64,000 nt of DNA, taken from NCBI RefSeq assembly GCF_008016455.1, contig NZ_SAXU01000001.1, positions 2,252,423-2,316,422 of the forward strand, written 5' to 3'. The notes beneath the pieces are model-generated. The model made no database searches. It had not been told where the DNA came from and worked only from the letters and a program-made list of their open reading frames with translations. Made by a program: the position numbers and the translations under genes. Source of the DNA: Brachyspira aalborgi. GTDB taxonomy: Bacteria; Spirochaetota; Brachyspiria; Brachyspirales; Brachyspiraceae. Of this stretch, positions 49,404 through 50,024 are shown in pieces. How positions within the stretch are numbered: the stretch's first letter is position 1; every line of letters begins with the position of its first letter.

Positions 49404-49487
49404 ATGAATAGAAAATTGAATTATTACAAGCCAAGCCAAGCCAAGCCAAGCCAAGCCAAGCCAAGCCAAGCCAAGCCAATACTTTAA
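49404..49487 (+). CDS. Leader ORF 4 with pentanucleotide repeat (early-stop frame)
   Basis: From ATG 49404 (MNRKLNYY) the frame crosses the AAGCC tract (repeating KPSQA) and meets TAA at 49485-49487. In the frame reached with one more or two fewer units, the sequence from 49480 is open for 57 codons to TAA 49651-49653, two bases before ATG 49656 of the next gene, with the AAAAGGAG site inside the overlap. The remaining frame is open to 49628. Long open frames are unexpected in sequence this AT-rich. This is the strongest single case for coupling. Confidence 0.55.
   Translation: MNRKLNYYKPSQAKPSQAKPSQAKPIL
49427..49479 (+). repeat. Pentanucleotide tandem repeat (CAAGC)10.6 in leader ORF 4
   Basis: A 53-bp perfect tract, conspicuous because it is GC-rich against a ~15% GC background. 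It lies between the promoter and the gene at 49656. Confidence 0.95.
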
Positions 49488-49655
49488 ACTTTTTCAAATT
49501 TTATGTTTACTTATTTATAAGAAATATTATATTTCATTTTATAAAAAATTATCTATTAATAAAAATAAATCTTTTTGGCTTTATGAATATATTTTTAATA
49601 TTTCAAATGCGGATATTAATTTATATTTAAATAATTCAATAAAAGGAGTATAAAA

Positions 49656-50024
49656 ATGGTGAGATTTTTAAGGAAAATATTTGTAGTATTACCGTTTATA
49701 TTAAGATTAATATTTATGTTTAAGCCAGATTATATAAATTTTATACAAACTATTTATAATAAAAATAATAATCTATTTTTAATTATAATTTTAATAATAT
49801 CAATTTTATATATTATAAATTTAATCGCTTTTATAATTTCTGGAAAAAATAGAGTAAATATAAAATATGTCAAAGGAAATGATACTTTTAAATTAAAAGG
49901 CAAAAAAGACAATTTTATTATAACTAAAAACGGTAAACATCAATTTTTAGTTAAAGACGGAATGATTATTGCGTATAAACCAACTAAATTATTTAGTAGA
50001 TTTAAATATTATAAAAAAAGATAA
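49656..50024 (+). CDS. Small membrane protein, first gene of the HNH operon
   Basis: I do not recognise the family. The 122-aa product has two hydrophobic segments (about 8-23 and 39-63) followed by a basic C-terminal tail of about 55 residues (NRVNIKYVKGNDTFKLKGKK). It has the strong RBS AAAAGGAG and sits directly after the coupled frame of leader ORF 4. The next gene starts 10 bp downstream. Its orientation and tail suggest a cytoplasmic nucleic-acid or protein-binding end, which is only inference. Confidence 0.6.
   Translation: MVRFLRKIFVVLPFILRLIFMFKPDYINFIQTIYNKNNNLFLIIILIISILYIINLIAFIISGKNRVNIKYVKGNDTFKLKGKKDNFIITKNGKHQFLVKDGMIIAYKPTKLFSRFKYYKKR

Follow-up and report, generated by a model that had tools for sequence, protein, structure and literature searches.

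In Brachyspira aalborgi, the operon encoding an HNH-like protein is preceded by a short leader ORF that probably acts as a phase-variable element. As read from the bases, slippage in a pentamer repeat would pick between early release of the ribosome and its delivery to the start of the first gene. The prospects are about even that this leader is one of about 70 modular cassettes, each consisting of a promoter, a start codon, a repeat with units of 5 or 7 nt and a frame-filtered tail ending on a gene start, which phase-vary receptors, lipoproteins, sugar-modifying enzymes, transporters and the HNH operon, many of them by hairpin-free, repeat-controlled termination-reinitiation with three levels (off, intermediate and on).

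Here we describe the HNH leader, the repeat-bearing leaders of the chromosome and their relatives in the genus. The window is the whole 64,000-nt stretch that was analysed (2252423-2316422 of contig C1; genome of 2.50 Mb, about 28% GC), and positions refer to the window unless given for C1.

The leader of the HNH operon

As in pil1-type systems, the operon is preceded by a leader ORF that contains a frame-shifting tandem repeat (Table 1). The three frames leaving the repeat meet stops at +5, +148 and +171 nt, and the number of units therefore selects between an early stop and a long leader. Relative to the gene 1 start codon (ATG 49656), the stops lie at -171, -28 and -5, and no post-repeat frame enters gene 1, unlike what an in-gene repeat would show. 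The sequenced clone carries the short phase, presumed off. Gain of one CAAGC unit (or loss of two, or gain of four) moves the frame of ATG 49404 into the coupled frame, whose stop is followed by 2 nt and then by the gene start, the stop-near-start arrangement of translational coupling. The third phase is reached by gain of two units or loss of one, and its stop lies upstream of the gene 1 Shine-Dalgarno (SD) sequence. An earlier first-pass annotation of this DNA had given the repeat tract, ATG 49404, TAA 49485, the 57-codon frame and ATG 49656, and had proposed that one added unit leads into the coupled frame; direct reading of the bases shows the coordinates to be exact and the frame shift to be correct.

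The tail between repeat and gene is 87% A+T, and a frame open for at least 171 nt arises in 0.6% of 20,000 dinucleotide shuffles, in agreement with the earlier claim that the open frame is unusual. That claim overlooked the second long-open phase (148 nt); the 171-nt and 148-nt pair occurs in none of the 20,000 shuffles. The operon, which the earlier annotation called possibly harmful, may be silent in most cells and on in few, as was also proposed; by counting, off is one phase in three, both other phases being long-open.

The promoter-like site upstream of the leader, which on sequence alone matches the pil1-type layout, has a TATAAT ending 9 nt before the leader ATG, as read by eye. The tie-break of our promoter scan gave another site for this leader, and TTGCTA-17-TATAAT was taken from the bases directly. 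The HNH mRNA probably starts at or beside the leader ATG, which would make it leaderless or nearly so.

The gene 1 SD, which the first-pass annotation had placed inside or adjacent to the leader frame, is inside it. It is strong (duplex of -8.4 kcal/mol), with an accessibility of 0.50 against an average of 0.49, and for this reason the 'off' state of the operon may mean 'lower', and translation of gene 1 may not be fully leader-dependent. The leader RNA at this locus folds no better than shuffles (z = +0.59), on which ground a stable fold hiding the SD was rejected, and no intrinsic terminator of the pil1 type was found between the early stop and the gene. A pairing of AAGCCAA in the repeat with TTGGCTT near 49575 was set aside, being absent from the other same-family leaders inspected.

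Table 1. Features of the HNH locus and of other repeat-bearing leaders in the window
Feature	Position	Strand	Remarks
Promoter-like site	49366..49394	+	TTGCTA 49366-49371, 17-nt spacer, TATAAT 49389-49394
Leader ORF at the present 10.6 units	49404..49487	+	27 codons, MNRKLNY-(YKPSQA repeats)-KPIL, TAA 49485-49487
(CAAGC)10.6, perfect pentamer repeat	49427..49479	+	sense strand stop-free in all frames
Coupled frame	49480..49653	+	57 codons, YFKLFQILCLLIYKKYYISF...NNSIKGV, TAA 49651-49653
Third phase, also long-open	49481..49630	+	TAA 49628-49630, 28 nt before ATG 49656
Shine-Dalgarno AAAAGGAG of gene 1	49641..49648	+	read as K-G-V within the coupled leader frame
Operon gene 1, 122-aa membrane protein	49656..50024	+	corresponds to the C-terminal part of a larger G021 membrane protein
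Operon gene 2, 337 aa	50035..51048	+	no family match
Operon gene 3, 608 aa, HNH-like	51070..52896	+	C-terminal half helical, hydrophobic
Leader, (ACAGT)5.4 at 781-807	750..807	+	leader ATG 750, before gene 961-1665
Leader, (AATTC)10.4 at 26548-26599	26537..26599	+	ATG 26537; long frame ends +8 of ATG 26691; long phase in the sequenced clone
Leader, (AATTC)14.6 at 42789-42861	42789..42891	-	leader ATG 42891 or 42864; long frame ends +11 of FkbM-methyltransferase gene start 42724
Leader, (TACAA)7.0 at 56461-56495	56443..56495	+	leader ATG 56443; ATGA overlap of one frame with receptor-like gene start 56608

The chromosome-wide set of repeats

The repeat survey covered 2.45 Mb of the chromosome; the C1 sequence used has a 37-kb gap at 2430001-2466925. 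The surveyed part contains 85 perfect tracts of period 5 and 15 of period 7, with other periods nearly absent (two AT tracts and one hexamer), while a Markov sequence of equal size contains no period-5 or period-7 repeat. About ten repeats lie at the 3' ends of genes and form a separate class; most of the other tracts are located 60-300 nt ahead of a gene. Leaders were assigned to 68 tracts, in which an upstream ATG reads into the repeat and a gene follows (gene starts called by a simple script), and fall into 37 families by tail similarity.

The 21 distinct leader units are all stop-free on the sense strand, compared to 10 of 21 on the antisense strand, and a start codon is present in one sense unit and in 14 antisense units. 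Sense-strand units also contain more C than G in 16 of 21 cases and equal numbers in the other five, never more G than C, a bias that might reflect avoidance of SD-like sequences and start codons, or a role in Rho loading. A promoter score of 3 or below is found upstream of the leader ATG in 64 of the 68 leaders, against 60% of controls, and in about a third of the 68 the -10 element lies 6-11 nt from the ATG. Copy numbers range from 4.8 to 19.8 among near-identical paralogous leaders, a spread that fits slippage. The sequenced clone has the short phase at 36 leaders, the middle phase at 20 and the long phase at 12 (chi-square p = 0.001, uncorrected for relatedness among leaders; slightly different handling gives 39/17/12).

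The 3'-end repeats have units such as GCAGA, AGAGC, AGAAG and similar, and occur at C1 4974, 149309, 151734, 534931 and 1553372, and on the minus strand at 144906, 591575 and 592758. Behind several of them lies a conserved stretch that has stops in each of the three frames, and from the sequence their unit number would set the C-terminal tail of the protein. Repeats of this class are also present in the sample of the related genome G003 (79554, 85602, 88213 and 90383).

Leader frames, tails and gene starts

Coupling was assessed against other gene starts at matched distance (500 sets). Frames fused to the gene were excluded and not counted as evidence, because wrongly called gene starts contaminate their controls. 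In 39 of the 68 leaders a non-fused frame has its stop between -8 and +20 of the next ATG, against a null mean of 4.2% and a maximum of 13%, and an exact ATGA overlap with the next gene is found in 21 of 68, against 0.8%. With one leader taken per family, the counts are 23 of 37 for start-proximal stops and 11 of 37 for ATGA. The phase-variable leader coupled to the downstream gene that the first-pass annotation had proposed is thus well supported by the sequence comparison of these 68 leaders; by the strict criterion, 29 of them lack a non-fused frame that ends at the start codon.

The tails are open far beyond expectation from shuffles. In 33 of 37 families (10.9 expected) the longest frame remains open up to the last 40 nt before the ATG, and a second frame is also long-open in 13 of 37 (3.2 expected). 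In the well-aligned AAGCA family every indel is a multiple of 3 in the open frame, and tail substitutions within families show no third-codon-position bias. Purifying selection on the leader peptide was rejected for lack of a third-position excess among these substitutions; what seems to be kept, judging from the alignments, is the openness of the tail and not the peptide sequence. Tails are modular, with the leader at 1802531 combining the front of one tail type with the rear of another, and the HNH tail family (FKLF..LCLLI..YK.YYI) occurs in the B. aalborgi genome with CAAGC, AAGCC, CAGCT and AAGCA repeats.

A functional small protein of the FKLF..LCLL..YK.YYI..F family as the product of the long frame, switched by the repeat, is very improbable: homologous tails do occur at several loci and in the related genome G002, but their substitutions lack third-position bias, the tails of other leaders are unrelated to this family, and the same stretch is also open in a second frame.

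Related species

One genome per species was compared, with G003 and G009 sampled at about 0.1 Mb each. G002 contains leaders homologous to the HNH-tail family (69-75% DNA identity), in which a CACGT pentamer replaces CAGCT and the closed/open/open frame pattern is kept, with 99 codons open in one case; the downstream gene is homologous at both places read. The retention of the tail behind CACGT in place of CAGCT indicates that leaders persist through changes of their repeat unit. The G003 and G009 samples contain 5- and 7-nt repeats in the same layout. Of five testable leaders, three have a longest frame that ends at -2, -12 or -25 relative to the gene start, and two fit less well (one at -68, one without a clear nearby gene). 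No such 5- or 7-nt repeats were found in the samples of G010 and G019.

Among 25 other genomes of the genus, only G021 has the HNH operon itself, whereas the TPR gene that precedes the operon is near universal. Conservation of the leader, as raised in the first-pass annotation, is therefore borne out for the leader family, which is kept in G002, and not for the operon orthologue in G021, which has no repeat, no leader and a longer first gene.

Proposed mechanism and alternatives

In the proposed mechanism, transcription from the promoter would begin at ATG 49404 or next to it, and a ribosome would read the leader into (CAAGC)n, where the number of units fixes the frame in which it leaves. In the short (present) phase it would meet TAA 49485 at once and be released 171 nt ahead of the operon. 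In the coupled phase it would translate 57 codons across the operon SD, terminate 2 nt before ATG 49656 and re-initiate on gene 1, and in the third phase it would end 28 nt before the start, probably giving an intermediate level. Slipped-strand mispairing would gain or lose units, switching the state reversibly. For this leader, we infer the slippage rate, the coupling and the effect on expression from the sequence. Termination-reinitiation is the simplest mechanism here because there is no hairpin, and because the long frame crosses the SD and ends 2 nt before the start. After early release, about 170 nt of A+T-rich RNA would in addition remain untranslated and exposed to Rho or nucleases, and polarity of transcription would thus probably add to the loss of coupling; help from Rho in the short phase is likely.

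It is possible to ascribe the whole arrangement to attenuation, the leader frame governing transcription through an intrinsic hairpin or Rho, with the closeness of stop and start a by-product of full translation of the leader. This is the proven mechanism of Streptococcus gallolyticus pil1 (PMC3894217), and rho is present in the genome. Of the 37 families, 10 have a hairpin followed by a T-run between repeat and gene, where shuffles give 2.1 and control regions have one in about 10% of cases, and in nine of these ten the short frame stops ahead of the hairpin and the long frame passes beyond it. One G003 leader has a textbook terminator in this position (AGCCAAAGCAT..ATGCTTTGGCTTTTTATATTTT), and the excess of families with two long-open frames looks as though either frame suffices. 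For hairpin-bearing families, the pil1 mechanism is accordingly the best reading by analogy. As the only mechanism it is nevertheless unlikely, since the HNH leader has no such hairpin and the ATGA overlaps in 21 of 68 leaders would be left unexplained.

The sequence ATTGCA follows a hairpin and T-run in 29 of 68 leaders and 10 of 37 families, against 7% of control regions (for example at window 56496-56530, L011-L130), and is present in G009 leaders too.

Less probable than attenuation alone is that the tract represents a mutational hot spot or a relict, with the operon expressed from its own SD regardless of the leader. The strength and accessibility of that SD and the leaderless G021 orthologue are consistent with this explanation, but it does not account for the genome-wide coupling to start codons, the stop-free sense units, the open tails or the promoters before leader ATGs, all of which argue for the phase-variable leader.

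The HNH operon and other genes behind leaders

The HNH-like residues of gene 3 (D183 H184 ... N215 ... H220 ... N224 ... K227 G228 D229) are invariant between the B. aalborgi and G021 orthologues. Weak matches to PDC-M40B (a candidate defence protein) and to a phage tape-measure family are confined to the helical C-terminal half, and a role of the operon in defence is a lead from these sequences, not a finding. A phage origin of the HNH protein was discarded, as there was no match in phages, and its structure prediction (mean pLDDT of 39.5, two sequences) was set aside.

Other genes behind leaders encode a family of receptor-like proteins of about 660 aa (no Pfam match in the one tested), lipoprotein-like and putative outer-membrane proteins (judged by their N-termini), glycosyltransferase 10, FkbM methyltransferase, MBOAT acyltransferase, a PMT_2 protein, solute-binding proteins, a PTS permease and others. 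A 609-aa GTPase-domain protein (L124:16154-17983; C1 2326154) lies behind an (AAGCA)8.4 leader with a tail resembling that of the HNH leader, and may represent a further accessory system governed by the same kind of switch. Elsewhere in the window, a 312-aa protein (59412-60350) matches phage records in tblastn at 39-54% identity, some of them short phage contigs from human faeces.

Comparison with known systems

If the proposed reading is true, a large phase-variable gene set is run almost wholly via leader ORFs and not inside genes, the on/off state of dozens of loci can be read from sequence, and clonal heterogeneity is explained. The HNH leader is most likely of interest mainly as a single member of a bet-hedging system that spans the genome, in which leaders with and without a hairpin, side by side, make coupling and attenuation readily separable. 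We found no report of such leader switches in Brachyspira in the full-text literature, a search outside which most subscription papers fall.

In-gene phase variation, as in Haemophilus, Neisseria and Campylobacter (PMC11868660), likewise involves frame-shifting repeats changed by slippage in surface-related or regulatory genes. The B. aalborgi repeats differ in that they lie ahead of the gene, in a distinct leader that has a start codon of its own and, before the HNH operon, also a stop of its own; leader peptides and attenuation are unmentioned in that review. In E. coli iraD (PMC5574718), a short upstream ORF is also coupled to the downstream gene; control there is by CsrA, whereas in B. aalborgi it would be by heritable change in repeat number.

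The closest counterparts are pil1 and pil3 of S. gallolyticus (Danne et al. 2014, PMC3894217). In the searchable literature, the leader-repeat design has so far been demonstrated only for these two pilus loci of a single streptococcus. In pil1, a leader containing (GCAGA)22 gives low expression when translation stops early and high expression when longer leaders melt a terminator. As in B. aalborgi, the pentamer belongs to a short leader ORF that separates promoter from operon, and the outcome depends on the unit count modulo 3: one phase stops early, and two give longer leaders. Both streptococcal loci have a terminator hairpin melted by the ribosome, whereas B. aalborgi has about 70 loci, among them the hairpin-free HNH leader, with many different 5- and 7-nt units and a long frame that often ends on the start codon of the gene.
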